From: a virus | Virus record (IMG/VR): IMGVR_UViG_3300008448_000838 | Location: 1 to 20,558 of that record | Direction: 5' to 3' (one strand) | DNA: 20,558 bases | Part shown: one piece after another, positions 1 to 20,558 of the stretch | Position numbering within the stretch: position 1 is the stretch's first letter | Layout: every line of letters starts with the position of its first letter | Translations under genes and position numbers: made by a program | Notes under the pieces: model-generated | What the model was told of the DNA's origin: nothing | What the model saw: only the letters and a program-made list of their open reading frames with translations | Databases searched by the model: none

Positions 1-1073
1 AAACCTGCTAATTTAGGTAAACGATTTGCCATATCATCACCTTCATTCAAGATTGGTTTTGATGGGCGTGTGCTTGCTGTTGGTTTAGACGCAAAAGATT
101 CCTTGATAGGTTTAACTTTTGTTGTTCTAAGCGATTCGCTAAGTGTAGCATAAACCAATTTGACTTCACGAAGACTTGATGCACGATCAAAGTTTTCGAT
201 AACAGTCATTTTTTGTTTTTCATTGAGTGAATGCTTGCGGAATAACTTGTTAGAGAAGAGCAATTTTGAGTTCAAAAGATTGACTTCATTGATTTTAGAA
301 CGCAAGAAAGAAATTACAGCATAAGCTTCACGAAGTTTTGCTTCTGCCATTTCTTTTTCTTTTTCATCTTCCGCTTCTTCAACCTTTTCTTCTTCTTCTT
401 CCTCACGGAGAGCACGAAGAACTTCTTTGATGTCTACTTCTTCTTCATCTTCACCTTCTTCAACCTTTTCTTCCTTTTCGCCTTCTTCTTCCTCACGGAG
501 AGCACGAAGAATTTCTTTGATTTCAGCAACTTCTCCGGAATCTTCTTCTTCATCTTCTACGAGTTGAACAAGTTTTTCACTCTTCATTTCGGTAGAATCA
601 TCGGATGCAACTGCAGAAGGTTTTTTGTTATCGCCAGTACCGATTTCAGATGAATCAATGTCTTCTTCTAATTGACGAATAATTTCCATCAATTCTTCAT
701 CCATTGGTTCTTCTTCATCTTCAGCTTCTTCTACCGGTGCTTCTTCTTCACCCTCAGCTTCTTCAACGGGTGCTTCTTCTTCACCTTCACCTTCTTCGAC
801 TGGCGCTTCTTCTTCTTCGCCTTCGCCTTCTTCCATAGCAGGTTCTTCATCATCACCTTCGCTATAGAATCCGTATTCTTCTACGGGTGCTTCTTCTTCA
901 CCCTCAGCTTCCTCGACTGGCTCCTCGGCTTCTGCCTCCTCTGCCAACTTTTGAGAAAGCATAGACTGCAAACGCGGAGTGAATGCCTCTTCCAGTGCAA
1001 GTTTAGCGTTTGCTAATGCTACTTCCTTAACGGCTTTTGCATCTGCAATCGCTTCTTTCAATAAATCATTCAT
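1..1073 (-). CDS. Prohead core / capsid assembly scaffold protein (T4 gp22-like), C-terminus outside window
   Basis: This is the likely internal scaffold around which the T4-type prohead shell assembles and which the prohead protease later destroys. The reading frame is open from ATG 1073 (GGAG at 1083-1080, 6 nt spacing) to the left edge, so about 357 codons are visible. It begins MNDLLKEAIADAKAVKEVAL. Residues about 45-225 are extremely Glu-rich with two internal repeat systems. Residues about 250-320 form a helical block (AYAVISFLRSKINEVNLLNS, NEKQKMTVIENFD, REVKLVYATLSESL) that I recognise from gp22-like scaffolds of cyanophages and other environmental T4-like phages. T4 gp22 is likewise acidic and helical. 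Position after the gp21-like protease and last in the visible operon matches the T4 order 20-21-22-23. LxE motifs (LRE, LME) match the T4 protease consensus. The family call rests on pattern memory, not on an alignment. Confidence 0.85.
   Translation of the reverse strand, partial: MNDLLKEAIADAKAVKEVALANAKLALEEAFTPRLQSMLSQKLAEEAEAEEPVEEAEGEEEAPVEEYGFYSEGDDEEPAMEEGEGEEEEAPVEEGEGEEEAPVEEAEGEEEAPVEEAEDEEEPMDEELMEIIRQLEEDIDSSEIGTGDNKKPSAVASDDSTEMKSEKLVQLVEDEEEDSGEVAEIKEILRALREEEEGEKEEKVEEGEDEEEVDIKEVLRALREEEEEEKVEEAEDEKEKEMAEAKLREAYAVISFLRSKINEVNLLNSKLLFSNKLFRKHSLNEKQKMTVIENFDRASSLREVKLVYATLSESLRTTKVKPIKESFASKPTASTRPSKPILNEGDDMANRLPKLAG
371..521 (-). repeat. Tandem duplication of a 90-bp segment in the scaffold gene
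   Basis: The 20-base segment at 401-420 recurs exactly at 491-510, an offset of 90 bp (30 codons), with similar flanks. It encodes two copies of IKE(I/V)LRALREEEE followed by a Glu/Lys-rich spacer. Each copy carries LRE followed by E, a match to the L/I-x-E consensus cut by the T4 gp21 protease. Confidence 0.85.
733..834 (-). repeat. 33-bp tandem repeats encoding Glu-rich EEAPVEE units
   Basis: Units of about 33 bp start at 733, 766 and 799, and a related unit lies near 882-915. They encode 11-residue steps of the form EEEAPVEE(A/G)EG in the acidic half of the scaffold protein. The spacing is slightly irregular (the third unit has one extra Glu codon), as expected from slippage. The Phe-rich frame on the plus strand here is only the antisense of these Glu codons. 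Confidence 0.8.
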
Positions 1074-1091
1074 AAAATTCTCCAACTATTT

Positions 1092-1180: not shown

Positions 1181-1309
1181 TTATTTTTTTTCTGTTTTTT
1201 CTGCATATTTTTCTGGAGGACCATATCCAAATATGGATTTTACATCATCTTCTGTGTAGATATATCTTTTGTCCCTATCTTTCGTATCTATTTTCTTTTC
1301 CTCAGGCAT
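1181..1309 (-). CDS. 42-residue acidic/basic microprotein, unknown function
   Basis: ATG 1309 opens a 42-codon frame ending in TAA at 1181. It starts MPEEKKIDTKDRDKRYIYTE, continues with DDVKSIFGYGPPEKYAE and ends in a Lys-rich tail. The start overlaps the last 8 nt of the ADP-ribosyltransferase gene. It is preceded by GGAG with 7 nt spacing, so translation coupling is likely. Charged residues dominate; there is no membrane segment and no Cys. I do not recognise the family. Evidence that it is real is the good ribosome-binding site, the tight junction and the filling of an otherwise empty gap between two head-operon genes. A small virion or core-associated protein is possible, but nothing in the sequence shows a function. 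Confidence 0.6.
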   Translation of the reverse strand: MPEEKKIDTKDRDKRYIYTEDDVKSIFGYGPPEKYAEKTEKK

Positions 1310-2552
1310 ATCTTTGCTCCACTAATACCTTATAGATATTTCTTGTATTATTAAAACCCTGAATTGTGTATCTACAATTTCTCGGTAATGTAACTTCTGT
1401 TTCGTGACAGTAATCATTGGAATGACAGGGTAATGTCAGTATAGATGTTCCCGCTGGAATAAAAAATTCAAATAGTGGCATTCTTTTCTTTTCAGTTCCC
1501 TCACATATAAATGGATTCAACGATGTTGTTACAAATGATTTGTCTATCCATTGTCCCTCGTCAATAAATAATTGCAATACATCTTCATTTTTTATAGAAC
1601 GATAAGCGATTATACTACTTTCCAATCTCTGTGGTTCTTCTGAAAAGGCGTAATCCAGTTCATTTATAGTAAAGGCGTTCATTGCACTATTGTATGCCTT
1701 TTCTCTTTTATCGCCTTCTTTTGGTTTTCCCAATTTAATTTGTTTTTGAATATCTTGTTTTGTTGCACTTGGTTGAGAAAACCGTATTATGTTGTTTATT
1801 CGTATAGAGTTTATGTAGTAATGATGTAATGCTAGTATGGTTTGTTTATCCAATTCATTTTTACTTATCAAATAGTGTTTTGATAAAGCAATCATTTCTG
1901 CTCGTTTGAATAATTTAGTAAAATTTGTTTTTTTATCACCAACGCTCAAATCATACATATCAATTATATCCTCATAATCATATTGTAGTAAATGTTCACG
2001 AGTTTGTGGATATAAATTATTTGTTTTAGCATCCAACTTTTCAACATCAACTTTCGTAAATGCACCAACCGTTTTTAGTCCTGTCTTACTTTCAGTTCCA
2101 CTTGCATCTGTTGTAGCCGTATCTGTTGTAGTTGCAGGGGTTTCTGCCGGTGTTTCGGTTGATGTAGTATCTGTTGTAGTTGTGTCCGTTGTGGTTGTAT
2201 CTGTTGCTGGGGTTTCCGGTGTTGTGGTATCTGCAGCAGGTTCTTCAGCAGCAGGTGTTTCCGTTGGTGCCGGTTCTTCAGCAGGAGTTTCTGTTGGTGT
2301 GGTATCTGCAGCCGGTTCTTCTTCTTCTTTTTTTGGTTCTTTTGCAGTAGATACATCATGTTTTGCTGGATCAAAACTGTCTTTGTTTATGTAATACGTT
2401 TTCCCACTCTCTTTATTGACCACACGCATTTTTTGAGGATCTTCGCTTGCTGGTTTTTCATCTTCTTCGTATAATGAAAAAGACCTTTCCAGGTTTTCAA
2501 TAACTCTCCGTGCTTCTTCACGGATTAGTTTTTCAAGACTAGCAAAGGTCAT
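1302..2552 (-). CDS. ADP-ribosyltransferase (R-S-E / ExE type) with acidic, P/T-rich N-terminal region; candidate capsid-packaged effector
   Basis: Likely a mono-ADP-ribosyltransferase that moves ADP-ribose from NAD+ to a host protein. The C-terminal domain (about residues 165-416) carries the three signature elements: Arg318 in AYRSI; the S-T-S-like strand FVTTSLNP (342-344); and Glu384-x-Glu386 in ETEVTLPRN, the ExE of arginine-specific enzymes. Residues 1-35 are a charged helix with IRE-E and LYE-E, matching the L/I-x-E sites of T4 prohead protease. Residues 75-155 are a Pro/Thr/Asp/Glu linker. T4 encodes three such enzymes (Alt, ModA, ModB), and Alt is packaged and clipped by gp21. Placement between protease and scaffold suggests similar packaging, which is inferred. 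ATG 2552 is chosen over ATG 2609 because GGAG lies 5 nt upstream and the bS21 stop is at 2563; the longer start would overlap bS21 by 47 nt. Confidence 0.85.
   Translation of the reverse strand: MTFASLEKLIREEARRVIENLERSFSLYEEDEKPASEDPQKMRVVNKESGKTYYINKDSFDPAKHDVSTAKEPKKEEEEPAADTTPTETPAEEPAPTETPAAEEPAADTTTPETPATDTTTTDTTTTDTTSTETPAETPATTTDTATTDASGTESKTGLKTVGAFTKVDVEKLDAKTNNLYPQTREHLLQYDYEDIIDMYDLSVGDKKTNFTKLFKRAEMIALSKHYLISKNELDKQTILALHHYYINSIRINNIIRFSQPSATKQDIQKQIKLGKPKEGDKREKAYNSAMNAFTINELDYAFSEEPQRLESSIIAYRSIKNEDVLQLFIDEGQWIDKSFVTTSLNPFICEGTEKKRMPLFEFFIPAGTSILTLPCHSNDYCHETEVTLPRNCRYTIQGFNNTRNIYKVLVEQRYA
2088..2330 (-). repeat. Low-complexity Pro/Thr/Asp linker repeats in the ADP-ribosyltransferase gene
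   Basis: About 80 codons of degenerate short repeats (TETPAEEPA and TTTDT units) encode a disordered-looking linker between the N-terminal helix and the catalytic domain. The antisense and shifted frames across this stretch are long but compositionally absurd (Val/Gly/Ser or Gln/Leu only). They are shadows. Confidence 0.8.
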
Positions 2553-2562
2553 TTTATCTCCA

Positions 2563-2790
2563 TTAAATGTTTTCAGAATCCAATTTTCTTTGTCTTCTGA
2601 TAGCAGCATTTCTTTTTTCTGCCTTTCTTTTTGATGGTTTGATATATTCCATACGATTTTTATATTCTTCGAGAATACCGGCTTCTTTTACTTTACGCTT
2701 AAAAACCTTAATCATTGTATCTACATTCATGCCACCCGCTTTCACTTTAACATGGGCATAATTTGAAGTTGTATACACTCTGTCTGACAT
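2563..2790 (-). CDS. rpsU: Phage-encoded 30S ribosomal protein bS21
   Basis: A 75-residue basic protein that aligns across its length with bacterial bS21 (E. coli 71 residues): KVKAGGMNVDTMIKVFKRKV, then KEAGILEEYKNRMEYIKPSK, then a Lys/Arg/Ala-rich helix. The conserved FKR, AG(I/V)L and Y-x-KP-(S/T) positions are all present. bS21 sits near the 3' end of 16S rRNA on the 30S platform and takes part in translation initiation. Viral bS21 genes are known from other phages. ATG 2790 is chosen over the upstream in-frame TTG 2796 because AAGGA precedes it at normal spacing. It lies 14 nt after the DUF3008-like gene and its stop is 10 nt before the ADP-ribosyltransferase ATG, so it is expressed with head genes. 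A late-made protein that retunes or marks ribosomes is the simplest inference. Confidence 0.9.
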   Translation of the reverse strand: MSDRVYTTSNYAHVKVKAGGMNVDTMIKVFKRKVKEAGILEEYKNRMEYIKPSKRKAEKRNAAIRRQRKLDSENI

Positions 2791-2804
2791 AACCAATTTC
2801 CTTA

Positions 2805-3401
2805 TTATTTCTTAATTTCATAAAATGTTCCAAGTTGTTTACCTATATTCTCATAGATAGACTCCAAGGTTCTTTGTAACTTAACTATTTTTTCTGATAT
2901 TTTTTGAAACTCATTGACAGATTCTTTTAATTGTTTTGATTTTCTTCTATGTGATACGCCTTCAAACCAATCACCAGATTCTTCTACCATATTTTTTGAT
3001 GCAAATTCTACCATTCTTTTTATTTCAGATACAATTTCAGGAAGTGTTCCGGAACGATGAATCACAGAACGATATTCATTGTATTTTGAAATGGCCTCAA
3101 TATATTGTTGTTTTTGTTCTGATGTTAGAACCTTTACACTAAACCTTTCTTTCATCACTTCTTGAACAGCATCTGCAACAAGTTTATTTATTTCTTCTTT
3201 CGTCATTGATGTTTTTGTTTCACCAACTTTCTTTGGAAGACCTTTATGTGAAGTTGATGCATATTTTTCCAATTCTTTTTCAGACATTGAATTTGCTAAT
3301 TGTTTTACGGTCTTACTAACATCAGACGTGGACACTTTTCCTCTTTTATATGCAAGAGCCAATCCCATAAGTTTTTGTTGTTGTTGTGATAATGCTGGCA
3401 T
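2805..3401 (-). CDS. DUF3008-like protein with helical C-terminal extension
   Basis: The N terminus (MPALSQQQQKLMGLALAYKR, then SKTVKQLANSMSEKELEKYA and STSHKGLP, residues 1-55) matches the small bacterial and phage family I know as DUF3008, typically MPA-SKAQQ-MG-A---KRG followed by KHKGLP. DUF3008 proteins are usually about 60-70 residues. This one has 198, the extra being charged helix with coiled-coil character (about 75-195). Function is unknown. GGGG precedes ATG 3401, and the gene follows the prohead protease by 2 nt. The domain is common next to head genes in T4-like environmental phages, so a core or internal virion protein is plausible but not shown. Confidence 0.7.
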   Translation of the reverse strand: MPALSQQQQKLMGLALAYKRGKVSTSDVSKTVKQLANSMSEKELEKYASTSHKGLPKKVGETKTSMTKEEINKLVADAVQEVMKERFSVKVLTSEQKQQYIEAISKYNEYRSVIHRSGTLPEIVSEIKRMVEFASKNMVEESGDWFEGVSHRRKSKQLKESVNEFQKISEKIVKLQRTLESIYENIGKQLGTFYEIKK

Positions 3402-3403
3402 TT

Positions 3404-4075
3404 TTATTTCCCCTCAAATATACATTCACAAACATTTCCAATCTCACAAATAATGTTTGTTATATTGTTGTGAATACGTTGTATTTTGGGATCAATTTTA
3501 GAAATTGTTGATGTGCTAATCCCCTCAACTATCAATCCTTCGTTTATTCCCTCACTCATTCCATCTGGATACATAAATGCACCATGAGTTGATGGATTAG
3601 AAACAAAGTCCCAACCTATCAATTCAAAATCATCTTGAACTTCAACCACACCTTCACTTATTTCTTCAACTGAACCCAATCCTCTTGATGATATTCCAAG
3701 ACGAATACCTGCACCAAGAAGTTGTTTTAGGATATTACCGGATGGTGTTGGTAGTATTTCAACTGTCCCAACAACATCATTTCCTTTCCAATCAACACCA
3801 AGAACATTATGAGAAACATTACGAAGATTTATTACAGATGAATCTGGATGGTCAAGTTCACCGAGAGCACGGCATTCTTTTATCTGATTTTCTGCATATT
3901 TTTTTACTTCACGAGTTAAAATCTTTTTTGGATATACTCTACCATTTTGATTTTTTGCTTCTGCTCGTTGTAACACTCCTGAAACTATAACTTTACCACC
4001 GTTCTTCTTTTCAGATTCGGTAATCACTTTTGGATTTACATTGAATAGTATAGTATCTACGAGTAGTTCTTTCAT
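3404..4075 (-). CDS. Prohead core protease (T4 gp21-like serine protease)
   Basis: This maturation protease sits inside the prohead, cleaves scaffold and shell proteins after L/I-x-E, then digests itself. The 223-residue protein is close to T4 gp21 in length (212). Diagnostic segments are VIVSGVLQRAEAKNQNGRVY (about 29-48), GELDHP with probable catalytic His76, the strand NVSHNVLGVDWKGNDVVGTV, and GIRLGISSRGLG with probable catalytic Ser129 or Ser130, followed by DFELIGWDFVSNPSTHGAFM. This is the herpesvirus-assemblin-like protease pattern of the T4 family. ATG 4075 is preferred: AGGTG lies 6 nt upstream and it starts 1 nt after the previous stop. An in-frame GTG at 4084 would add three residues. 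The C-terminal 50 residues after MSEGINEG are more variable. Confidence 0.93.
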   Translation of the reverse strand: MKELLVDTILFNVNPKVITESEKKNGGKVIVSGVLQRAEAKNQNGRVYPKKILTREVKKYAENQIKECRALGELDHPDSSVINLRNVSHNVLGVDWKGNDVVGTVEILPTPSGNILKQLLGAGIRLGISSRGLGSVEEISEGVVEVQDDFELIGWDFVSNPSTHGAFMYPDGMSEGINEGLIVEGISTSTISKIDPKIQRIHNNITNIICEIGNVCECIFEGK

Positions 4076-4076
4076 C

Positions 4077-4580
4077 TTAAGCACCTAATTCGTTTATTTT
4101 TTTAGTAATTCTGTTTATTCTTTCGGATATTTTTCTCAATCTACTCATAGATTCACCCCAAAGAGTTCTTTGATCAACATTCATTTCAGTTTTTAATTTG
4201 AGTGCATGTTCAACAACTCTTTCAACTTCATAGATTGTTCTGTTTATATTCTTAATTGAATCGTTTATTTTTCTATTACTACTACGGGTTTCGTCTCTAC
4301 GAAATTCTTTGTATGTTCCTTCGTTTATTACACCCATTGCCTGTTTGTATACGGATTCGGAATTAACTTTCTTTTTCTTTGGAACAATAGTATATCCCAT
4401 AGTTTCCGCACTTTCTTTGCTATGTTTTTCAAATTCTTCTTCACTTGGAGCAAAAGCATTTGGAGTTTGGTATCCAGGAACAGAAGCGGTTGTGCTCATT
4501 TCATCTAATGCAAGTTCTTCAGCAAACTCACGATATTCTTCCGACTCTTTAAGTTTTTTTATGAATGCTTCAACTGACAT
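4077..4580 (-). CDS. Conserved T4-like head-operon protein with TTASVPGYQTPNAF motif
   Basis: A 167-residue protein directly upstream of the protease. Residues 1-28 are a charged helix ending in LALDE. Then comes the motif MSTTASVPGYQTPNAF (28-43), which I recognise as a recurrent element of prohead and structural proteins in T4-like cyanophages and related marine phages. L-x-E immediately before the motif would be a cut site for the gp21-like protease. The C-terminal half (about 95-167) is helical with coiled-coil spacing. Its position matches that of the small core proteins gp67/gp68 of T4 (between portal and protease), but I see no specific similarity to them. AGG precedes ATG 4580 at 7-8 nt. 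A prohead or core protein is the best guess. Confidence 0.6.
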   Translation of the reverse strand: MSVEAFIKKLKESEEYREFAEELALDEMSTTASVPGYQTPNAFAPSEEEFEKHSKESAETMGYTIVPKKKKVNSESVYKQAMGVINEGTYKEFRRDETRSSNRKINDSIKNINRTIYEVERVVEHALKLKTEMNVDQRTLWGESMSRLRKISERINRITKKINELGA

Positions 4581-5785: not shown

Positions 5786-7654
5786 TTACAATTCATCTAA
5801 TAAATTGTTTTCATCTAGTAAATTTGGTTCAATTTCTTGATTATCTAATGGTTTTAGACTTTCAGATATTATATGTTTAGTCTTTACTTTCATACCAGAC
5901 ATACTACCAATCAACTTTTCAACATCTTTGTTTTCAAGAGAAAGGGGTGAATTTCCCTTATGATTTGCCTTTGGTGAATTATTGACTTTAAGAGTATTAC
6001 CAACATCTTTCATTCCAATAGGATCTCTACCAAATGGACTCTTATCTGTTCCGTAATTTAAGTTTTTAGCAGGTCTACCTGCACCAGGCCAACCACCTTC
6101 TGGAACTTCATTGTCATTTATCACCTTATATCCACTACCACGAATCTGCATACTTGCAATATCGTGAGGAGTTCCGAATGATTCCTTTGTAATTGCAGGA
6201 TCGTTTCCTTCATTTTCAATCTGTTTTTGACGGAATGCATGTTTGATGTCTTCAAGAACTTCATTCTTTTCAAATTCCGCCTGGTCTTCTGAAAGATTGA
6301 ATATATTGGAATAAATATATTTCATTGATAATAGTTTCTTTTCAATAAGCGTTCCAGCCAAATCTACTTTTTCTTTCATAAGAGCAACTTTCTCTTGTTC
6401 GTAGATGATAGATGGACCGGTCAAACCAAGTTCAAAGTTTACAAGGTCAGCATTTTCATAACCTTGTGAGTAAAGATGAACGATAGCAATTTTAGTTAAT
6501 TCAGAAACAACTATTCTTTGAACTCTTTCGATTGTTCTAGCAAAACGAATATCAAGGGCAGCAAGTGTTGCCTTACCTTCAATACTTTCGTCATAGCCCA
6601 AATATGGTTTTGGAACTTTAAGAGCAGCAAAAATCTTTGATTTTAGATATTCAATATCTTGTATAGAATCATATTGTAATCCAGCAAGAGTTTCGATTGA
6701 CGTACCAGATTGACCACCACGAACTGGAAGATAAAAGTCTTCCAAAAGATTTTGCATATTGAAACGAAGATTGTAGTCACCAGTTTGTTCATTGATAACC
6801 GGTGTCTTCTTCATTCTATTCATAAGGTTGTTCATGTATTGGTCTACTTCTGCTGGGGGAATGTTACCAATATCAACTTTGAATATCCTTTTTTCTGGTG
6901 CTCTCATAATACGATGTATCAACATCGCATCTTCCATGAGAACTAATTGTTTGTAAAGTTTTCTAGCACCTTCCAACATAGATTTACCGTAAGGAAGATA
7001 GTTTGTATCACCGAGAAGACGGAAGTGAGCAATTTCATAATTCTGAAATTCACCTTTACCGAGAGGTCCTTCGTAAACAAACTTTGTCATATAGATATGT
7101 TCTGGATCAGTCCCTTCATCTCTTTGCATTTCGTATGGTGAAAATGGAACAACATTTGTTACACCCAATTCATCCTTTACATCAAGATACAAATAAAAGT
7201 CTCCATACTTACAAAGATTACGGATCCATGGCCATAGATTGTATTCAACATTCAGAACATCATAAAAAAGATTATGAAGAATTTTACGAATGTTATCATT
7301 ATCAGTTTTAATCGTTAAAACATCTCCAGTATCATTTTTCAATGTGCTTTCGTCCGCATAAATGTCAAGAGCCGATGAAATAATTGCATCGGTGTCCATT
7401 GCCTCATAATCAGTATAAAGATCTATTTTTGTAGCAGAGAAAGAATTGTATTGATTGTAAACAGATATTGGCGTTCCACGTGTTCCGTGTAATCTACCAT
7501 ATCTATCAATAACTTTTGATGTATGTGGGTTCCCATCGGCTTGATAACGAGCAGTATCAACAACTTTTAACTTTTTTCCACCAACATTACGAACAACAAC
7601 ATTAGTAGAAAAAAGTGTTTTTAATCTGTCAAATAATGATTTTTTTTGAGCCAT
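5786..7654 (-). CDS. Portal vertex protein (T4 gp20-like)
   Basis: The portal forms the dodecameric ring at one capsid vertex. It nucleates head assembly, docks the terminase and is the channel for DNA. Diagnostic stretches are SFSATKIDLYTDYEAMDTDA followed by IISSALDIYADEST, the block LYKQLVLMEDAMLIHRIMRA followed by PEKRIFKVDIGNIPP, RGGQSGTSIETLAGLQYDSI, and KVPKPYLGYDESIEGKATLA. All are typical of the gp20 family. T4 gp20 has 524 residues; this has 622. The excess is mainly a polar C-terminal tail (about 500-622, Asn/Gly/Pro-rich, ending in a doubled LLDE(N/L) motif), which looks disordered. ATG 7654 starts MAQKKSLFDRLKTLF. It is transcribed alone between two promoter-like boxes and follows the terminase directly. 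Confidence 0.95.
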   Translation of the reverse strand: MAQKKSLFDRLKTLFSTNVVVRNVGGKKLKVVDTARYQADGNPHTSKVIDRYGRLHGTRGTPISVYNQYNSFSATKIDLYTDYEAMDTDAIISSALDIYADESTLKNDTGDVLTIKTDNDNIRKILHNLFYDVLNVEYNLWPWIRNLCKYGDFYLYLDVKDELGVTNVVPFSPYEMQRDEGTDPEHIYMTKFVYEGPLGKGEFQNYEIAHFRLLGDTNYLPYGKSMLEGARKLYKQLVLMEDAMLIHRIMRAPEKRIFKVDIGNIPPAEVDQYMNNLMNRMKKTPVINEQTGDYNLRFNMQNLLEDFYLPVRGGQSGTSIETLAGLQYDSIQDIEYLKSKIFAALKVPKPYLGYDESIEGKATLAALDIRFARTIERVQRIVVSELTKIAIVHLYSQGYENADLVNFELGLTGPSIIYEQEKVALMKEKVDLAGTLIEKKLLSMKYIYSNIFNLSEDQAEFEKNEVLEDIKHAFRQKQIENEGNDPAITKESFGTPHDIASMQIRGSGYKVINDNEVPEGGWPGAGRPAKNLNYGTDKSPFGRDPIGMKDVGNTLKVNNSPKANHKGNSPLSLENKDVEKLIGSMSGMKVKTKHIISESLKPLDNQEIEPNLLDENNLLDEL

Positions 7655-7686
7655 TTGTCACCTATTTTATGTAATATAAACTTAAT

Positions 7687-7695
7687 ATAAATATG
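7687..7695 (-). promoter_or_regulatory. CATATTTAT box upstream of the portal gene
   Basis: Coding strand 7695-7687 reads CATATTTAT and ends 33 nt before ATG 7654, in the 59-base gap after the terminase stop. The plus strand here (7686-7693) reads TATAAATA, identical to the T4 late -10 box but pointing away from the portal gene. A promoter role is inferred from recurrence and position. Confidence 0.45.
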
Positions 7696-7713: not shown

Positions 7714-9306
7714 TTATTTTATCAACCAGGTTAAGTCTTCGTTTTGACCATTCACATTCATGCTCCACCCATTATTATCATCGCCAAAACTGTATGATGG
7801 TTTGTGTGGAATGGATGCCTTTCCCATGTAATCCAAACTCATTCTTGTTTTCATCAATCCCTCTTGACGAAGTTTTATTGCAGTATCTCTTACCCACAAA
7901 CCGATTGAAAATGACATAACCAAGTCATCGTTATATCCATTTTGTGCCTCTGCCTTTGAACCATTCCAAACAAACACAAGAAGTTCTTCGGTCAATCTTG
8001 CAGATTTTACAATAGGGGTTCTTTCACGAAAATATGTTTCTAATTTTGAAATGAGAAGTGGTCTTGTTTTTGCACTTGTTGTAAATCCAGGAACCATTTG
8101 TGATTTGTCTTTTAAGTCATAACCTTTTGGTATTTGAATAGATGGATCAACATATCCATCTTCTTTGTAGGTATAATATAGATTTGGATAACCTCTGTCT
8201 ATAACTTGTTGAATTACCGCCCAACCAACATTAGCATTTTCAATAACAAGCATCGCATCATTGTATTCAGTAGCAACAGATACTAACATATTACCGTATG
8301 ATTTTGTATCAAGTTTTCCACGATATTCTGCAACTTGTTCTAAATTATCAATGTCAATAACATGGAATGCTGAGTTATCATTTCCATCACCACGAGCAAC
8401 GTCTGCTACAACAATATAAGTTTTTGAAGGTTCCGGGTAATCCCAAATCCAATAAGCATCTTCTGCACCACGTTTTTCTTTTGGTTCACATACATAAGTT
8501 TCTCTATACCATTGAACCAATTCACCATCAATAACAGATCGACCAGATGCAAGAAAGTTTCCATCACATTCTTGTTTTGCCATATCAGGACCAAGAAGAA
8601 CATCTTGTTCGTCTCTCCATGTTTGGTCACGGTCTGGATGGACTTGCCATAATAATTCTATTGGATTAAATGCACTTTCACCTAATGTTGCCTTTACCCA
8701 TTGTTTGTGATAAAAGTTACCAACACCATTTGGTGTAGAATTGATAATTGCAGTTCCACCGGTTGCAAGTGTTTGTTGTGCAGATGCCCATATCTTATCT
8801 ATGTCATCAATAAAGGCGGCCTCGTCTATAATCAGAAGCGAAAGTGCCTCAGAACGAGCAGAATCAGCGGCAGCAGAAACGGCTTTAATTTGTGAACCGT
8901 TTTTGAAACGAAGTGATAGTTTATTATCTTCTTGAACGCCAGTTTTTAACCAACTCGGAAGATTATCATACATGACACGAACTTTTGTAACCAAGTTCTT
9001 TGCAGTTTCTTGTTTTGTTGCAATAACAAGAATGTTTTTATCTTGATTAAACAACATCATCCAAAGTGAATATCCAGCGATTAAAGTAGAAATACCCAAC
9101 TGACGAGATTTCAAAACGATGTTATATCGGTTACTGTTAAATTCTTTTAGAACATCTTCCTGAAAGGGATATAGTTCAAAAAGGATTTTGCCACGAGTTG
9201 GGTGTTGAATCTTTGCATACCTTTTCATAAAGTATATTGGATTACTTGCACACTTAGCAAATTCCTCTTTGATAATATCTTTAAGATTTTTATTGGATTG
9301 ACTCAT
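7714..9306 (-). CDS. Large terminase subunit (T4 gp17-like ATPase/nuclease)
   Basis: The DNA-packaging motor docks on the portal, pumps DNA with its ATPase and cuts concatemers with its nuclease. In 530 residues: adenine-contact region YPFQEDVLKEF (46-56), Walker A SRQLGIST (67-74), Walker B LLIIDEAAFI, coupling motif INSTPNG, and a RNase H-like nuclease with acidic residues in VVADVARGDGNDNSAFHVID, MLVIENANVGW and NDDLVMSFSIGLW. T4 gp17 has 610 residues, and its Walker A is SRQLGKTT, so the P-loop Lys is replaced by Ile here. SRQ-GxST forms are common in phage terminases, with the Arg thought to act instead. ATG 9306 is chosen because it overlaps the preceding stop as ATGA; the upstream in-frame start at 9357 lies inside the membrane-helix codons of the preceding gene. 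Confidence 0.95.
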   Translation of the reverse strand: MSQSNKNLKDIIKEEFAKCASNPIYFMKRYAKIQHPTRGKILFELYPFQEDVLKEFNSNRYNIVLKSRQLGISTLIAGYSLWMMLFNQDKNILVIATKQETAKNLVTKVRVMYDNLPSWLKTGVQEDNKLSLRFKNGSQIKAVSAAADSARSEALSLLIIDEAAFIDDIDKIWASAQQTLATGGTAIINSTPNGVGNFYHKQWVKATLGESAFNPIELLWQVHPDRDQTWRDEQDVLLGPDMAKQECDGNFLASGRSVIDGELVQWYRETYVCEPKEKRGAEDAYWIWDYPEPSKTYIVVADVARGDGNDNSAFHVIDIDNLEQVAEYRGKLDTKSYGNMLVSVATEYNDAMLVIENANVGWAVIQQVIDRGYPNLYYTYKEDGYVDPSIQIPKGYDLKDKSQMVPGFTTSAKTRPLLISKLETYFRERTPIVKSARLTEELLVFVWNGSKAEAQNGYNDDLVMSFSIGLWVRDTAIKLRQEGLMKTRMSLDYMGKASIPHKPSYSFGDDNNGWSMNVNGQNEDLTWLIK

Positions 9307-9674
9307 TGGACTACTAAAATTACTCCAACAACAGAAGCGGCTCCTGTTAGAAACCACAAAAATTTATTATCATACCAACGAGGTTGAAGTTCTTCTATTA
9401 TTTTTTCCAATTCTACACTTCTTTTTTTGCAGGCAGAAAGTGCCTCATCACGGTTTTTTAATTGTTCTATAAACAAGTCTGACCTTGAAACATATAAATC
9501 TATTACTGTATCTTGAACATTAACAACGGAAGTTAGGTATTCAACCGAATCTCGTATGAGTTGGATTTTATTCCATAATTTAGTTACTTCGGGTTTTGTA
9601 AAACAAACAAGGGAATCTTTTTCGGAAGCAAACGTTACTGAAACAGAAAACAATAGTGCGATAAGATATTTCAT
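9303..9674 (-). CDS. Exported coiled-coil protein with C-terminal membrane helix (possible spanin-like lysis component)
   Basis: 123 residues: a classic signal sequence MKYLIALLFSVSVTFASE (cleavage probably around TFA/SE), a helical heptad-like region (about 30-97) rich in charged residues, and a C-terminal hydrophobic segment WFLTGAASVVGVILVVQ (about 105-123). Secretion plus a C-terminal anchor would place the coiled coil in the periplasm. This recalls the one-piece spanin layout, except that there is no lipobox (Cys24 is preceded by SLV, not L-A/S-G). The gene starts 4 nt after another membrane-anchored coiled-coil gene, which supports a two-component membrane function such as host lysis. 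No endolysin is visible in the window. Family not recognised. Confidence 0.55.
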   Translation of the reverse strand: MKYLIALLFSVSVTFASEKDSLVCFTKPEVTKLWNKIQLIRDSVEYLTSVVNVQDTVIDLYVSRSDLFIEQLKNRDEALSACKKRSVELEKIIEELQPRWYDNKFLWFLTGAASVVGVILVVQ

Positions 9675-13670: not shown

Positions 13671-14459
13671 TTACACTATCGAATCCCACAATTTTTTCCA
13701 ATCAATATATGGATCAAGTTGTCTTTCATATCCCATGTGTAATGCAAGGGATGGTATCGGTGTAAACAATTTTACTTCCCATCGCCAAATGTGATTTATA
13801 GTAGTTCCCTCTTGTATCTGATTTTCTTCACCCCATTCGGTCATGTATTCCGTTGCACAAGTATAAAATCTACTCCAGAATTTACGGACAATTTCGGGAT
13901 TACACATGAAACTGAAAGTAGAATACTTGTTAGTTCTCCAATGACGATTCATTCCTAATACAATCCGAGTATCATCTATAAAAAGTGGCAAGTAATTGTC
14001 TGGATCATCGTATGGATGGATTGCAACTTCTATTCCAAGATTTTTTTTGAACGTTTGATATGCCTCAACCATTTCAACTATTGCAGTTGGATAATGTAAA
14101 TAATCATCTTCTATAAAATAAACCAAATCTGCAGTTGATTCTCGTCCTCTATTAAATTGAGCATGGCCAGATGCATTCCAACCACGCAATTCAAGTGCAT
14201 TAAATTCGTATGTATGTTTAGATGTTTTGAAAATTTCATGTAAAGCATCTATCATCTTTTGTGAAGAATGGTCATCATACCAAACGAAATGTATTTTACC
14301 GTCATAATGTTCTGCCGATTGAACTAATGACTTTACACATTTAATAACTAATGTGATTTTATCAACACCGCAATATCTCGGAGTTGGATTTGGATGAATG
14401 TCTATCAAACTATGTGTTCGTAGAACTATATCTATACTTAATTTTTCTTTACCAACCAT
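13671..14459 (-). CDS. GT-A fold glycosyltransferase-like protein
   Basis: A 262-residue protein. The N terminus IDIVLRTHSLIDIH and the strand IHFVWYDDHSS (57-65) resemble the nucleotide-sugar-binding start of family-2-like glycosyltransferases. ADLVYFIEDDYLHYP (110-124) supplies the acidic DxD-like metal site (Glu117, Asp118, Asp119). The rest (HPYDDPDNYLPLFIDDTRIV, NRHWRTNKYSTFSFMCNPEI) resembles phage and bacterial glycosyltransferase-like proteins of unknown acceptor. It overlaps the upstream methyltransferase by 22 nt, with GGAG 10-11 nt before ATG 14459. The cassette context suggests modification of a glycan on the virion or the host surface. The donor sugar cannot be told from sequence. 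Confidence 0.7.
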   Translation of the reverse strand: MVGKEKLSIDIVLRTHSLIDIHPNPTPRYCGVDKITLVIKCVKSLVQSAEHYDGKIHFVWYDDHSSQKMIDALHEIFKTSKHTYEFNALELRGWNASGHAQFNRGRESTADLVYFIEDDYLHYPTAIVEMVEAYQTFKKNLGIEVAIHPYDDPDNYLPLFIDDTRIVLGMNRHWRTNKYSTFSFMCNPEIVRKFWSRFYTCATEYMTEWGEENQIQEGTTINHIWRWEVKLFTPIPSLALHMGYERQLDPYIDWKKLWDSIV

Positions 14460-15040
14460 GTTTGTTCTGCTCCTTGATATGCTTCAGCACGAATTGAAAT
14501 TATTTCATCTTCTTTTTTGAAAAACTCTTTTACTGCCATATTGATTGGTGGCCATACATAATCATCACCACAAATATAACCACCCTTTTTAACTTTCGGA
14601 AACCAATGTCTTATATCATCACGAACATTTATGTAATCGTGTGCACCATCTATGAAAACAAAATCCAAACTTTCATCTTCATATAATTTAGATGCCTCAA
14701 CTGATGGCATTCTGATTGGGTTTATTACAGACTTTACAGGTTCAATGTTATAGATAAATTCATTGTAAAGACCGTCTTTTGTTTGCAGTAAAGGTTCGTA
14801 TGATGGATTGTCTTTATCAAGATGTTCTTCGGAACCTTCCCATGTATCTACACAATCAAAACGAATTTTTTTGCCACTATTCAGTATTTCTACACCCATG
14901 TAAGTTGAACTTTTTCCTTTCCAACTACCAATTTCAACAAAATGATATTGGTCAGTATTATTACAAGACAAAACCATTTGTGTAAACAATTTCTCTTGAA
15001 CAAACCAACCATGAATGTTATAGTAATAATGTGGTATCAT
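14438..15040 (-). CDS. SAM-dependent methyltransferase (Methyltransf_24-like)
   Basis: 200 residues with the class-I methyltransferase core: motif I FVEIGSWKGKSS (34-45), motif II IRFDCVDTWEGS with an acidic SAM-ribose contact, and LDFVFIDGAHDYINVRDDIR, then GGYICGDDY. EIG-(W/F)-G-S and FIDG-HxY are the hallmarks of the family often found in sugar-biosynthesis clusters and phages. ATG 15040 is chosen because it overlaps the upstream stop as ATGA and follows AAAAGA. ATG 15055 would add MAKEN without a ribosome-binding site. It sits between a second methyltransferase and a glycosyltransferase. The substrate is probably a sugar or glycan. Confidence 0.85.
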   Translation of the reverse strand: MIPHYYYNIHGWFVQEKLFTQMVLSCNNTDQYHFVEIGSWKGKSSTYMGVEILNSGKKIRFDCVDTWEGSEEHLDKDNPSYEPLLQTKDGLYNEFIYNIEPVKSVINPIRMPSVEASKLYEDESLDFVFIDGAHDYINVRDDIRHWFPKVKKGGYICGDDYVWPPINMAVKEFFKKEDEIISIRAEAYQGAEQTWLVKKN

Positions 15041-15666
15041 ATTTTCTTTTGCCATATTGTTAATTTATTATCAAATCTATTTGGGTATTGGTGTGAAGAT
15101 ACCAAAGAAAACCTCTTTGATATTTCATCGTGAACATTTATACCATCATTATCCCATATAACCATTTGTTTTTGGTCTAAACCAACTGGTATAAACCTCT
15201 CATGTTCATTCATAAACATAAGTTTACCGTCTGGTTTAAGAATGTTATGTATAAAATCTATATCTTCTATCGGATGTTCACTGTGTTGTAGAACAAAAAG
15301 ACAAACAACAAGGTCAAACTTATTGCAATAGTCTTCTTTGTTTTCTAAATTCTTGTTGTAAACCGTTGGATTAAACTTTTTACTATCAACATATTCGGTT
15401 GCAAAGTGTAACATGGGTTCACTAATATCAAATCCTGTCATCTTACAACCAAATCTTTCTATTAGTGCATGGCTAACTCTCCCAACACCACATCCAAAGT
15501 CAGCAACTTCACAATCATACCAACAAATTTCTTCTTTTTCAGCAATTTGAATTGTTGCTCCAGTTTCTTTTTGATATTTTCTTGGATTATTAGTGTTTGG
15601 CGTCAAACAAATGTCTTTTGCATGAGAAATATCTTTTGGATAGAATGCTTCTTTAAGATAACCCAT
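15037..15666 (-). CDS. SAM-dependent class-I methyltransferase (Methyltransf_11/25-like)
   Basis: 209 residues. Motif I VADFGCGVGR (54-63) and Asp80 in GFDIS bind SAM; FDLVVCLFVLQHSEHPIEDI (motif IV/post-motif region) and LKPDGKLMFMNEH (motif V/VI) complete the standard fold. The N-terminal 50 residues (DISHAKDICLTPNTNNPRKY) are specific to this protein and may bind the substrate. AAGGGA lies 9 nt before ATG 15666, and the gene follows the GT9-like gene by 5 nt. The fold alone does not tell the acceptor; cassette context favours a sugar or a small molecule. DNA methylation is less likely, since no target-recognition domain or DPPY/NPPY motif is seen. Confidence 0.85.
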   Translation of the reverse strand: MGYLKEAFYPKDISHAKDICLTPNTNNPRKYQKETGATIQIAEKEEICWYDCEVADFGCGVGRVSHALIERFGCKMTGFDISEPMLHFATEYVDSKKFNPTVYNKNLENKEDYCNKFDLVVCLFVLQHSEHPIEDIDFIHNILKPDGKLMFMNEHERFIPVGLDQKQMVIWDNDGINVHDEISKRFSLVSSHQYPNRFDNKLTIWQKKI

Positions 15667-15671
15667 ATAAA

Positions 15672-16682
15672 TTATCCCTTATTATTGTTTTCCACAAGTT
15701 TTGTTAATTCTTCACGGATATTTTGGAATGTATCACCCCACTCACCATATTTTGTCTGTCTAAATAGACGAACCGAGTCATACCATTTTGATTTATCACC
15801 AGGAACAGCCCATGTGTAGTATGGCATGATAGGTGTAACTATCCATGTTGGAATACCCATAGCACCTGCAAGGTGAGCAACCGATGTACATGATGTGATG
15901 ATGAGGTCACAACCTGCAATAATGTTTGCAGTATCATCCCAAGTCTTCATTTGTTCACGCAAATCACCAAATGGAAGACCATCAACACAGTTTTCGTCTC
16001 TTTGTAATGAATAGAATGATGTATTTGGAATATCGGATAGACCAATCATCAATTCTGGTGGAAATCTTCGGTGTTGTTCGTCTTCAAAGTCTGGTGAACC
16101 ACTCCAACGAATACCAACCTTGAATGCACCCGGTTTTGAAAACAATTTTCTTGGATTTGTTGGGAAAAGAAACGGTGAACCATCTAATTCATCATATTCC
16201 ATATCCAAAAGGAATGGAGCAGACATAGCAGGGACCCAATAATCATAGTGTGCAGCCATCACAATTTCATTATCAACACAAATGAAACCATGACGAGAGA
16301 ACATTTCTTTCAATTCAGGAGCACATGATACCAAAACTCTTGCACCCATTTCTTCAAATCTCTTAGCAAAACGAAAGTTAAGTATTTGATCACCATACCC
16401 ACCCTCACATCTGAAAAGAAGTGTTTTGCCTTCGAGTGGTTCATCTTTCCAAATACGACCTTGTAGTGCCGGAAGTCCAAACACATCAATAAATCTTCCA
16501 TAATTGAAATGTTCAAATGCTTTTTTCATGTTACCATGACGCATTTCGTGCCATCCCAAATTAAAAAGAACACGATAATCATTCTGTGGTTGTCCACGAA
16601 GAATTTCTTCACTAACTTCCGGCTTACCATTGATGGCATTTTGTAATGCCACATCTAACGGATGCATTTTTTTAATGTCCAT
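15672..16682 (-). CDS. GT9-like (heptosyltransferase-fold) glycosyltransferase with N-terminal helical repeat
   Basis: 336 residues. Residues about 8-70 are TPR-like helices (VLFNLGWHEMRHGNMKKAFE). The GT-B fold follows: CEGGYGDQILNFRFAKRF (92-109) is the usual G-GD-I acceptor-domain helix; VGIRWSGSPDF (189-199), FYSLQRDE, TWDDTANIIAGCDLIITSCT and TSVAHLAGAMGIPTW (266-280) match the nucleotide-sugar-binding domain of heptosyltransferase relatives. The residue normally Asp in D-T/S-xxAHL is Cys265 here. WYDSVRLFRQTKYGEW is typical of TPR-GT9 proteins in phages and proteobacteria. ATG 16682 is preferred over the in-frame TTG 16709: AAAAGG lies upstream, and TTG has none. First gene of the modification cassette. 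Confidence 0.8.
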   Translation of the reverse strand: MDIKKMHPLDVALQNAINGKPEVSEEILRGQPQNDYRVLFNLGWHEMRHGNMKKAFEHFNYGRFIDVFGLPALQGRIWKDEPLEGKTLLFRCEGGYGDQILNFRFAKRFEEMGARVLVSCAPELKEMFSRHGFICVDNEIVMAAHYDYWVPAMSAPFLLDMEYDELDGSPFLFPTNPRKLFSKPGAFKVGIRWSGSPDFEDEQHRRFPPELMIGLSDIPNTSFYSLQRDENCVDGLPFGDLREQMKTWDDTANIIAGCDLIITSCTSVAHLAGAMGIPTWIVTPIMPYYTWAVPGDKSKWYDSVRLFRQTKYGEWGDTFQNIREELTKLVENNNKG

Positions 16683-16716
16683 AATACATAACCTTTTAAT
16701 TTCTTTCAAAAATATA

Positions 16717-16725
16717 ACAAATATA
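16717..16725 (-). promoter_or_regulatory. TATATTTGT box upstream of the modification cassette
   Basis: Coding strand 16725-16717 reads TATATTTGT, one base different from the 5770 copy (G for A). It ends 35 nt before ATG 16682, in the 78-base gap after the RCC1-repeat gene. The gap otherwise holds only AT-rich sequence with no convincing terminator. Confidence 0.4.
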
Positions 16726-16760
16726 CGAATAATTTACATAATAAGCAAATTTTATTTTAA

Positions 16761-19700
16761 TTAGTATTGTTTAGTACCAATAAAATGAGATTGTAAAACA
16801 TAATCAACCCATATTGTTTCGTTTCCGATTTGAACAGGTGATGATTTATTTATCAGAGTTCCATCTGCTAGAATACCAGCAGTATTAAATCCCCAACCCC
16901 ATAGAGTTCCATCTGATTTCTGTGCGAAAACTGTATCTTGTGAATGACCAGTTCTAACACTAATCCAATCTGTATCTGCTCCTATTTGAACCGGACTTGA
17001 ACGATTTGCAGTCTGAGAAGTTGTGTCAAAACCATGTGCATGTAATCCGGTAGTTAATGCATACCCATTATTTAATAATAATACAGAGTTTGCATCACCT
17101 AGACTAGCAGATACCCAATTTGAAAGAGTACCCACTTGAACTGGACTTGAACGGTTAATCACATCACCAAGACCAAGTTCTGCACTAGAATTTAATCCCC
17201 AAGCCCAAAGTGTTCCATCGGAACGAATTGCCATCGAAGTATTATCACCAACAGCAGCAGATACCCAATCATTTCTAGTACCAACTTGAACTGGACTTGA
17301 ACGATGTGCAGTTGAACCTAAATTCAAACCTAATTGTCCATCTGCGTTGTTACCCCAAGCCCAAAGAGTTCCATCAGAAAGAATTGCCATGTTATGTGTT
17401 TGAACAAAACCACCTTTATCGGCAATACTTCTCCAAGTTCTTGTTCCAATTTGAATAGGTGAAGACAAACTTGTTGTTTGGTTATTACCCAACATACCAT
17501 CTGCATTCGATCCCCAACCCCAAAGGGTTCCATCAGTTTTGAGTGCATGACTACTAATATACCCAGCTGCAACACTTGACCAATTAGTTAATGTTCCAAC
17601 TTGAACTGGACTGGAACGATTTATCGATGATCCGTCACCCAAGGCACCAGAATTATTGAATCCCCATGCCCATAGTGTACCATCGGTTTTAACAGCAAGT
17701 GAATATAGATACCCACCATCTACTTGTGCCCAATTTGAAAGAGTTCCAAGTTGAACTGGACTACTTCTATTTGTACTAGCATATGCAAAATCTGTTGAGT
17801 TCATTCCAGTTGTATAAGCATCGCCGTTATTTTGTAAAAGAACAGAAAAGGCCGCTCCTAAACTTGCAGATGCCCATGTTGAAAGTGTTCCAACTTGAAC
17901 TGGTGATGATCTATCTATAGCATCACCCAATCCTAATTGACTGTTTGGAGTATTTGAACCCCATGACCAAACTGTACCATCTGATCTAACGGCCATTGAA
18001 CTGAAAAAATTTACAGTAGCAGATACCCAATCATTTCTGGTTCCAACTTGAACTGGACTTGAACGATGTGCCGAAAAACCTAAATTCAAACCTAATTGTC
18101 CTTCGGAATTTCTTCCCCATGCCCATAGAGTTCCATCAGTTCTTATTGCCAGTGTGTGATACGATTCACCAGCACTTGTGTCAGCAACACTTGACCAGGT
18201 TAATGTACCAACTTGTACTGGACTACTACGATGTGTAGTAGCCCCAGCATTTCCTAATCCCAATTCACCTAAAAGGTTGTTACCCCATGCCCATAGAGTT
18301 CCATCAGAACGAATGGCATAACTATGGGGTGTTGCTGCATATACTTTTGACCAAGTGCTTAATGTACCAACTTGTACTGGTGAAGATCGAGTAACCACAT
18401 CACCAAGTCCTAATTGTCCTTGTGATTGTGTACCCCATGCCCATAAAGTTCCATCTGTCCTTATTGCAAGTGAGTGTCCGGCCGCTGATACATAAGACCA
18501 TGTTCTAGTTCCAATTTGAACTGGACTACTACGATTTACCATAAAACCTGTGTCATATCCTGGTAATGTTCTGATACCACCAACACTTAATGCATATCCA
18601 GTGTTTTCCAATAGACTATATTCATTACCACCTGCACTACCAGATACAATGTTTGTTTGAGTTCCAATTTGAACTGGACTACTTTTAGTAACAATGGTTC
18701 CGTCACCCAATCCTGCACCGGTATTAAGTCCCCATGCCCAAATTGTTCCGTCTGTTTTTATTGCAATAGATAAACCAGAATTAGCAGCAGGAATAGACCA
18801 GTTAGTTAAAGTTCCAACTTGAACAGGACTTGATCGATATGAAGATACACCTGATAAATTTATTCCTAATTGACCGGTAGCGTTAGTACCCCATGACCAT
18901 AGTGTTCCATTTGATCTAACTGCCATTGTATGGTCCCAAACAGTTACTTTTGTCCAATCGTTTAATGTTCCAACTTGAACTGGACTTAATCTGGTAACCG
19001 TATCACCCAATCCAAGTGTACCCACTCCATTTTCACCCCATGCCCAAAGCGTTCCATCGGAACTAATTGCCATGGTTGAAGTAACACCTCCAACTGCAAA
19101 CAACCATGTTCTTGTTCCAACTTGAACTGCACTTGAACGTGTAATGGTATCACCTAATCCCCCTTGACCACTACCATTACTTCCCCATGTCCATAGAGTT
19201 CCATCGGTTTTAATTCCACCACTATAATTATTTCCGGCAAATACATCAGCCCAATTAGTTTCTGTTCCAACTTGGACTGGACTACTTCTTGCGTTTCTTG
19301 TTCCGTCTCCCAATTCTCCGTTTGTTCCTACACCCCAAGACCAAAGAGTTCCATCAGTTTTAACTCCTAATCCAGTGCTGTTTCTAAATGAAATTTTTGC
19401 CCAATTTGTTTCCGTTCCAATTTGAACTGCACTTGAACGATTTATATTCGTTCCGTCTCCTAACTGACCACTTGAATTAGCACCCCAACCCCAAAGAGAT
19501 CCATCTGTTGAAATTGCCATTACCGAGTTTGCTCCGTTTTCAATAGAACGCCAGGTTTTTGTATTATCAACATATTGTGGATTACTACGACTTCTTGCCA
19601 AACCAAGTTCTGCACTAGTATTTGATCCCCAACCCCATAGTGTGTTATCATCAAGAATTGCAAGTCTGTGAGTATTACCGGTCGAATAATTATTCCAAGT

Positions 19701-20558
19701 TCTTGTTCCAATTCTAACTGGACTAGTTCGTGGAAGTACATCATTAAGACCAAGATTACCACTTGAATTTGAACCAACTGCCCATAAAGTACCGTCTGTA
19801 CTTCTCAAAATTACATCAGCGCCTCCCGCTTCTACATTTGTCCATACGTTTGATCCGGATATGTATTGTGGATTATATTGCAGTAAACCTAATTGAGTAC
19901 CTGAATTGTCACCCCAAGTCCACAATCTACCACTACGAACAGCCATAGTATGAAATCCACCATTGGAGAAATCACTCCATGTTTCCGTACCAATTTGAAC
20001 TGGACTGGAACGATTAACCACATCATTCAAACCAAGATTTCCATATGTTGTATTTCCACCCCATGCCCAAAGTGTATTATCTGTACTTCTAGCAATTACA
20101 GATTGATAACCGGCTTTTACCGAATTAAAAAGTGGAGGTCTTACTACATAATTTGGAACACTACGATTTCGTAACAAACCTAATTGACCATTAGTATTGG
20201 TTCCCCACGACCAAAGTGTTCCATCATTGCTTACAGCAACACTCATATTTTCACTAGCAGAAATATCCACCCATGTATTTAATGTTCCAATTTGAGTTGG
20301 TGCAAATCTTTGACTGGTATTCCCAAGACCAAGTTGACCTGAGGAATTAAGTCCCCATGACCAAATAGTTCCGTTTGTTTTGAGTGCAACTGTATGGTTT
20401 ACTGCTGCAGAAACTTTTGACCAATTAGTTTCAGTACCTATTTGCACTGGACTGGATCTAAGTGTAGACGTACCATCGCCAAGTTGAGATTGTGAGTTTA
20501 TACCCCAACCCCACATAGTACCATTGTTTTGAATTGCCATTGTATAACTTCTACCGGC
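16761..20558 (-). CDS. Giant RCC1-repeat protein, probable tail fibre or adhesin; N-terminus outside window
   Basis: The frame is open across the right edge: codons for GRSYT precede ATG 20540, which is an internal repeat Met, not a start. 1265 residues are visible before TAA at 16761. They comprise 25 units of about 50 residues with the RCC1 signature: (M/L)A(V/I)(K/R)(T/S)DGTLWAWG, then G-LG-GD and RSSPVQ(V/I)GT. RCC1 units form blades of seven-bladed propellers, so three or more propellers could be built. Units 14, 19 and 24 lack WAWG and mark a five-unit super-repeat. Lack of a membrane segment, size, and the nearby tail-chaperone and glycan genes favour a virion surface protein for receptor binding. 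Eukaryotic RCC1 (a Ran exchange factor) is related by fold only. Confidence 0.85.
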   Translation of the reverse strand, partial: AGRSYTMAIQNNGTMWGWGINSQSQLGDGTSTLRSSPVQIGTETNWSKVSAAVNHTVALKTNGTIWSWGLNSSGQLGLGNTSQRFAPTQIGTLNTWVDISASENMSVAVSNDGTLWSWGTNTNGQLGLLRNRSVPNYVVRPPLFNSVKAGYQSVIARSTDNTLWAWGGNTTYGNLGLNDVVNRSSPVQIGTETWSDFSNGGFHTMAVRSGRLWTWGDNSGTQLGLLQYNPQYISGSNVWTNVEAGGADVILRSTDGTLWAVGSNSSGNLGLNDVLPRTSPVRIGTRTWNNYSTGNTHRLAILDDNTLWGWGSNTSAELGLARSRSNPQYVDNTKTWRSIENGANSVMAISTDGSLWGWGANSSGQLGDGTNINRSSAVQIGTETNWAKISFRNSTGLGVKTDGTLWSWGVGTNGELGDGTRNARSSPVQVGTETNWADVFAGNNYSGGIKTDGTLWTWGSNGSGQGGLGDTITRSSAVQVGTRTWLFAVGGVTSTMAISSDGTLWAWGENGVGTLGLGDTVTRLSPVQVGTLNDWTKVTVWDHTMAVRSNGTLWSWGTNATGQLGINLSGVSSYRSSPVQVGTLTNWSIPAANSGLSIAIKTDGTIWAWGLNTGAGLGDGTIVTKSSPVQIGTQTNIVSGSAGGNEYSLLENTGYALSVGGIRTLPGYDTGFMVNRSSPVQIGTRTWSYVSAAGHSLAIRTDGTLWAWGTQSQGQLGLGDVVTRSSPVQVGTLSTWSKVYAATPHSYAIRSDGTLWAWGNNLLGELGLGNAGATTHRSSPVQVGTLTWSSVADTSAGESYHTLAIRTDGTLWAWGRNSEGQLGLNLGFSAHRSSPVQVGTRNDWVSATVNFFSSMAVRSDGTVWSWGSNTPNSQLGLGDAIDRSSPVQVGTLSTWASASLGAAFSVLLQNNGDAYTTGMNSTDFAYASTNRSSPVQLGTLSNWAQVDGGYLYSLAVKTDGTLWAWGFNNSGALGDGSSINRSSPVQVGTLTNWSSVAAGYISSHALKTDGTLWGWGSNADGMLGNNQTTSLSSPIQIGTRTWRSIADKGGFVQTHNMAILSDGTLWAWGNNADGQLGLNLGSTAHRSSPVQVGTRNDWVSAAVGDNTSMAIRSDGTLWAWGLNSSAELGLGDVINRSSPVQVGTLSNWVSASLGDANSVLLLNNGYALTTGLHAHGFDTTSQTANRSSPVQIGADTDWISVRTGHSQDTVFAQKSDGTLWGWGFNTAGILADGTLINKSSPVQIGNETIWVDYVLQSHFIGTKQY
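16930..18617 (-). repeat. Higher-order repeat of five RCC1 units (about 762 bp period)
   Basis: RCC1 units 14-24 are arranged with a five-unit period. For example, the segment at 17261 recurs at 18023 (offset 762 bp, 254 codons), both encoding GTRNDWVSA after GLNLG and AHRSSPVQ. Each period contains one degenerate unit (N-NNGYALTTG type) without the WAWG blade motif, at units 14, 19 and 24. Confidence 0.8.

Follow-up and report, generated by a model that had tools for sequence, protein, structure and literature searches.

Why should a phage keep a gene for the ribosomal protein bS21 among the genes that build its head? The question is raised by the window analysed here, namely the whole stretch of 20,558 nucleotides (positions 1 to 20,558) of the IMG/VR virus record IMGVR_UViG_3300008448_000838. 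In this window an initial annotation, made from the sequence without database searches, had recognised a complete bS21 signature and a good ribosome-binding site:

2563..2790, minus strand: bS21 (rpsU-like) gene, 75 aa, with its ATG at 2790 and its stop ending at 2563 (PF01165, TIGR00030, PHROG 21469)
2799..2803, minus strand: AAGGA Shine-Dalgarno-like site of bS21, 8 nt 5' of the ATG

Both elements were borne out. The 75-aa product matches Pfam PF01165 with 49.3 bits (cut-off 27; model positions 6-55 of 55), the NCBI equivalog TIGR00030 with 47.4 bits (cut-off 28.95) and PHROG 21469, ‘ribosomal protein S21’, and by these sequence matches it is confirmed as a true, full-length bS21. The AAGGA site recurs 6-10 nt ahead of the bS21 start in 66 of 66 relatives. 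The annotation had also taken degraded rRNA-contact residues as a sign against its proposal; most of the well-conserved family positions are intact. Where at least 85% of 102 bacterial sequences agree, the residue class is the same at about three quarters of the positions, and the differing ones number six, four of them in the N-terminal part. Across 42 distinct bS21 genes of the clade, the median omega is 0.084 at a median dS of 0.94, indicative of purifying selection, and a pN/pS of ~0.10 has been published for viral ribosomal-protein genes (PMC6375957). A phage bS21 that is functional and maintained by selection is supported by these comparisons.

The genes around bS21 in the window all lie on the minus strand, co-oriented with it, and include the following:

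7714..9309, minus strand: large terminase subunit, TerL (phrog_2, E 2e-50)
5786..7654, minus strand: T4-like portal protein (PF07230, E 4e-71)
3404..4084, minus strand: prohead core protease, Peptidase_S77, T4 gp21-like (PF03420, E 1.6e-30; phrog_207, E 5e-54)
2805..3401, minus strand: DUF3008-containing gene immediately upstream of bS21 (PF11450, E 1.4e-15), adjacent to it in 66/66 relatives
1302..2552, minus strand: Alt-like ADP-ribosyltransferase gene immediately downstream of bS21 (phrog_802, E 3e-5, a weak match)
3..1085, minus strand: acidic scaffold-like gene, truncated at the end of the window, which precedes the capsid gene in relatives

Read downstream, the order is TerL, portal, three small genes, protease, the DUF3008 gene, bS21, the Alt-like gene, a 42-aa ORF and the scaffold-like gene. 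The placement first proposed, between prohead protease and scaffold genes, therefore holds in outline, but bS21 is adjacent to neither, with the DUF3008 gene on the protease side and the Alt-like gene plus the 42-aa ORF on the scaffold side. Lying within a few genes of the prohead protease, portal, TerL and MCP genes, it shows the proximity scored in an earlier survey, where 388 of 900 published bS21 phages had a core structural gene no more than ten genes away (PMC9723584). The nearest named phages by TerL are Mel-JY01 (64%) and the Flavobacterium phage immuto (55%), and in both a homologue of the scaffold-like gene stands directly before the major capsid gene. As for the Alt-like gene, no match was obtained in a Pfam search, and R, STS and ExE-like motifs were read by eye; an alternative upstream ATG at 2609 would make it overlap bS21. 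T4 Alt is packaged in the phage head, and by analogy the ADP-ribosyltransferase next to bS21 may be head-packaged too. Adjoining the head module, a cluster at 13671-16709 (minus strand) comprises a glycosyltransferase-like gene, two methyltransferases and a 345-aa gene.

Is this arrangement peculiar to the window? The initial annotation had called for a survey of the neighbourhoods of other viral bS21 genes, and a single fixed slot emerged. With the window bS21 as query, 66 IMG/VR loci were found as close relatives (72-99% bS21 identity), and in 66/66 of them bS21 is co-oriented and directly follows the DUF3008 gene. The next gene is the ADP-ribosyltransferase in 50 and the scaffold gene in 13, while 3 loci end there, so that the Alt-like gene follows in 50 of the 63 relatives in which the locus extends to a further gene. 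Gene order around bS21 is identical in the Microcystis phage Mel-JY01. Through a TerL-profile search, 80 further loci were gathered (TerL identity 58-96%), 21 of which have bS21 at this slot, oriented alike; where such wider-family loci cover the slot, from protease to scaffold/capsid, bS21 is present in 19 of 22 and absent in 3. It is also absent from the stretches read of immuto and of phage LR756508, and together with the three empty slots this indicates that bS21 is dispensable. Judging from gene order, the placement is old and fixed in this T4-like TerL family, which shows that phage bS21 has long belonged to the head operon across a wide family and was not simply picked up by chance.

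Two observations on other phages were made along the way. The portal ORF of LR756508 (L070:17808-21968) is 1386 aa long and apparently broken by several intein-like insertions. In Salicola phage SCTP-2 a bS21 labelled hypothetical (L072:7956-8216) sits between ClpX-like and ClpS-like genes.

A phylogeny of the protein points in the same direction as the gene order, with the caveat that the tree holds 132 short sequences, with few columns and long branches, and is usable for the broad picture only. The window clade and Mel-JY01 form one well-supported group (100/94), which groups, on long branches, with further viral bS21s of the TerL family (94/88, not decisive) and falls outside all sampled bacterial groups; the recent random acquisition considered at the outset is not what the tree depicts. 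The Chen-like phage L330 and L268 are found among bacterial Tyr54 sequences. Our reading is that bS21 was inherited from old within this phage family and acquired separately by other phages. The single best pairwise score of the window bS21 belongs to an alphaproteobacterium, and an alphaproteobacterial origin was considered on account of a C-terminus like ‘..EAIRRQRKLDRK’; it was dropped as host evidence, given that many non-Bacteroidia Bacteroidota have the same A-x-R-R end and that viral and alphaproteobacterial rows stay apart in the tree.

When would a gene in this slot be expressed? The relevant signal lies before the portal gene:

7686..7693, minus strand: copy of TATTTATA, the family late-promoter motif, ahead of the portal gene; in relatives the motif is enriched in front of genes, on their sense strand

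Upstream of genes, sense/antisense counts of this motif are 19/5 in the relative G005, 13/0 in G004 and 14/2 in Mel-JY01, and it appears to be the late-promoter motif of this phage family. Genes from the portal gene down to bS21 are tightly packed with short gaps, and motif and packing together suggest that bS21 is co-transcribed late with the head genes; in other bS21 phages, late expression has been inferred from transcripts (PMC9723584). The motif TATTTATA also occurs in immuto and in G305-G309, and on the sense strand it is the reverse complement of T4's TATAAATA.

A second promoter type bears on the host:

16718..16748, minus strand: Bacteroidota-type two-box promoter TTG-N18-20-TAnnTTTG, with the same signature strongly enriched in relatives

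This signature, the Bacteroidota sigma-factor consensus, stands ahead of the 345-aa gene of the cluster adjoining the head module. Its sense/antisense counts upstream of genes are 14/2 in G005 (177 kb), 7/1 in G004 (137 kb), 17/2 in Mel-JY01 and 4/0 in 40 kb of G008, with fewer than 0.6 expected, and in Tyr54 Bacteroidota genomes it reaches 8/4 (expected 0.6). No instance was found in the examined regions of Syn9, HTVC008M and T4. Head-module loci taken alone have none either, which would follow if late genes are read from a phage late promoter. Immuto, meant as a positive control, showed no enrichment; a Bacteroidota phage can therefore do without the signature, and little can be read from its absence. 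Mel-JY01 (PP395634), alone among isolates in having this operon, is labelled a Microcystis phage. A cyanobacterial host was rejected, since neither the promoter signature nor the gene content is in keeping with it. Mel-JY01 has no annotated photosynthesis genes and its promoters are of the Bacteroidota type; its host label may be wrong.

A Bacteroidota host brings in a particular property of bS21. In F. johnsoniae, Tyr54 of bS21 stacks on A1534 and helps to hide the anti-Shine-Dalgarno (anti-SD) sequence, and a Y54A substitution yields about threefold more product from strong-SD mRNAs (PMC9976891). An aromatic residue at this position is also found in all phages described by Chen et al. (PMC9723584). 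In the window clade the corresponding residue is Arg (ungapped; all clade bS21s) and in Mel-JY01 it is Lys; a gapped phmmer alignment places Ile there in the window bS21, which is non-aromatic either way, so that the aromatic hallmark of the Bacteroidia-type, anti-SD-sequestering bS21 is lacking. One could thus imagine that, in a Bacteroidia host whose Tyr54 bS21 hides the anti-SD tail, the non-aromatic phage protein replaces it and frees the anti-SD, letting SD-bearing phage mRNAs win. The F. johnsoniae mutant and the Arg and Lys residues are consistent with such a switch. So is the observation that, where phages have Bacteroidota-type promoters, SDs are confined to those with a non-aromatic bS21, the Tyr54 phages G313 and G314 being without them; immuto, with no bS21 (and no promoter enrichment of its own), also lacks SDs.

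The use of SDs was measured with a uniform ORF caller throughout, whose starts are sometimes wrong. In the window, a 4-nt match precedes 48% of 21 genes versus 18% in shuffled sequences, and a 5-nt match 14%; the true share is somewhat higher, as some first-ATG starts are probably wrong. The strong GGAG/AAGGA sites initially ascribed to nearly every gene were thus an overstatement. Expressed as the energy of the duplex formed with the 16S tail, with shuffled upstream sequences as the baseline, SD use amounts to -1.75 kcal/mol in the window, -1.50 in G005, -1.97 in G004, -1.36 in Mel-JY01, -2.53 in T4 and -0.22 in immuto. Over 62 loci of the clade, 48% of 782 genes carry a 4-nt match against 12% after shuffling, compared with 5% of 811 genes against 6% in 58 aromatic-54 loci gathered with a Tyr54-type query.

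What weighs against the switch, in our view, is the distribution of SDs among genes and among bacteria. In five clade genomes, the frequency of SDs is 0.68 (ddG -2.15) for the 56 genes that immediately follow a host-type early promoter, compared with 0.60 for 50 genes behind the late motif, 0.46 for the remaining 574 and 0.12 after shuffling. Early-promoter genes thus carry SDs as often as late genes, and therefore SDs should work before bS21 is made. Furthermore, wider TerL-family phages with Tyr54 (G305, G307, G309) use SDs, though they lack Bacteroidota promoters, and residue 54 and SD use are therefore not strictly tied in the TerL family. The idea that a viral bS21 biases initiation towards SD sites, put forward in the initial annotation, is accordingly left without support by both the early genes and the aromatic-54 phages.

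Bacteroidota bS21 is of two kinds, Tyr54 and A-x-R-R. Ten Tyr54 Bacteroidota regions show no SD use (ddG -0.12), and several A-x-R-R Bacteroidota do use SDs; G303 (GC 0.35) pairs an SD ddG of -1.66 with this promoter type (7/4 against 0.8 expected), and in 13 more regions from its class the ddG is -1.31. Such bacteria would explain everything without a switch. Promoter, SDs and bS21 type being explained together by an SD-using A-x-R-R host, the sequence evidence makes it most likely that the host belongs to the Bacteroidota outside the Tyr54, SD-blind Bacteroidia, its own bS21 ending in A-x-R-R and its genes using SDs. Against such a host stand the bS21 tree, in which the viral clade does not group with A-x-R-R Bacteroidota, the best pairwise score noted above and the Microcystis label of Mel-JY01. 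A CRISPR-type DNA match and a TerL match were sought in 391 genomes of the candidate class with nothing useful found, the stronger DNA matches being RCC1 repeats and low-complexity stretches. Near the window end, a gene at 16761-20540 (minus strand) encodes a 1259-aa protein with ~22 RCC1 repeats, with ~70% DNA matches to RCC1-like stretches in genomes of that class. A 147-kb, AT-rich phage-like contig binned with G403 (G403:C7, L458) was set aside as another phage, its bS21 being of the Tyr type and its genes without SDs; this bS21 lies beside an apparent SmpB, a second translation-related gene.

In light of the early-gene SDs and the SD-using A-x-R-R Bacteroidota, the switch, at first sight a strong candidate, is regarded as improbable. 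Its evolutionary form, namely a natural Y54A-like switch in an SD-ignoring Bacteroidia host, with a phage genome that evolved SDs to profit from it, is likewise deemed improbable; if true, the SDs of early genes would need a virion-carried bS21 or residual SD use by the host. The comparison of promoter type, SD use and residue 54 has a value of its own, separating host-derived traits from possible effects of the phage protein, and phage pairs that are Tyr54 without SDs and Arg54 with SDs, both with Bacteroidota-type promoters, offer a direct test of the effect of bS21 on mRNA selection.

The reading we favour, and consider moderately probable, is that of a true bS21 inherited at a fixed slot in a T4-like family, made late and replacing the host bS21 in the 30S subunit of an SD-using, non-Tyr54 Bacteroidota host. 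Phage late promoters would drive the gene along with the head genes, and its product would be made in quantity late in infection. By homology and by the published pelagiphage case, the protein would enter host 30S subunits, displacing the exchangeable host bS21, and there it may keep initiation running or retune it during the synthesis of structural proteins. The SDs of phage genes would then suit the host's own ribosomes, and no contribution of the phage bS21 would be required for their use.

Entry into ribosomes has a precedent in the HTVC008M bS21, which enters E. coli 70S ribosomes (Mizuno et al. 2019, PMC6375957). The resulting ribosomes are ~5% active in vitro, and one might propose that the phage bS21 serves host shut-off, mainly lowering translation of host mRNAs or inactivating part of the ribosomes, all the more as the adjoining Alt-like ADP-ribosyltransferase suggests a host-takeover neighbourhood. 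According to its authors, however, the low activity may reflect a mismatch with E. coli ribosomes (PMC6375957), and expression late, alongside virion genes, would then harm the phage; we give this proposal a low probability. Alternatively, host bS21 could be limiting or lost in infection and the phage could supply an equivalent copy with unchanged specificity. The exchangeability of bS21 (PMC6375957), the retention of most conserved positions and the strong purifying selection fit such replenishment, but the distance of the viral clade from all bacterial bS21s sampled is large, seemingly beyond what plain replacement would need, although long separate evolution could have the same effect; on balance this appears unlikely. 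The favoured reading, replacement of host bS21 by a late-made phage protein, can be set against three known systems.

The first comprises the freshwater Bacteroidetes huge phages of Chen et al. 2022 (PMC9723584), in which bS21 is likewise near TerL, portal, prohead protease and capsid genes, and for which late expression was inferred from metatranscriptomes and Bacteroidetes hosts were inferred, as here. In their five clades, however, bS21 is on the strand opposite the structural genes, in contrast with the co-orientation seen in all 66 relatives, and their bS21 is aromatic at position 54 and close to bacterial Tyr54 bS21, unlike the non-aromatic protein of the window. The 321-kb L330/G313, Chen-like by size and bS21 type only, has no SDs, while phages of the window clade use them. 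Pelagibacter phage HTVC008M (PMC6375957) is likewise a T4-like phage with a bS21, and the purifying selection matches that published for viral ribosomal-protein genes, but it belongs to another phage family with another host, and the activity figure above was obtained with its protein. Mel-JY01 (bS21 WWT39311) is alike in gene order, with a bS21 53% identical in addition to the similar TerL, and differs in its Lys in place of Arg at the Tyr54 position and in its label as a cyanobacterium-infecting phage, a label that finds no support in its promoters. Published work thus already covers bS21 next to phage head genes, its late expression and its incorporation into ribosomes (PMC9723584, PMC6375957); as far as the searched literature shows, what is new is the fixed, co-oriented slot across the TerL family and the way in which promoter type, SD use and residue 54 go together.
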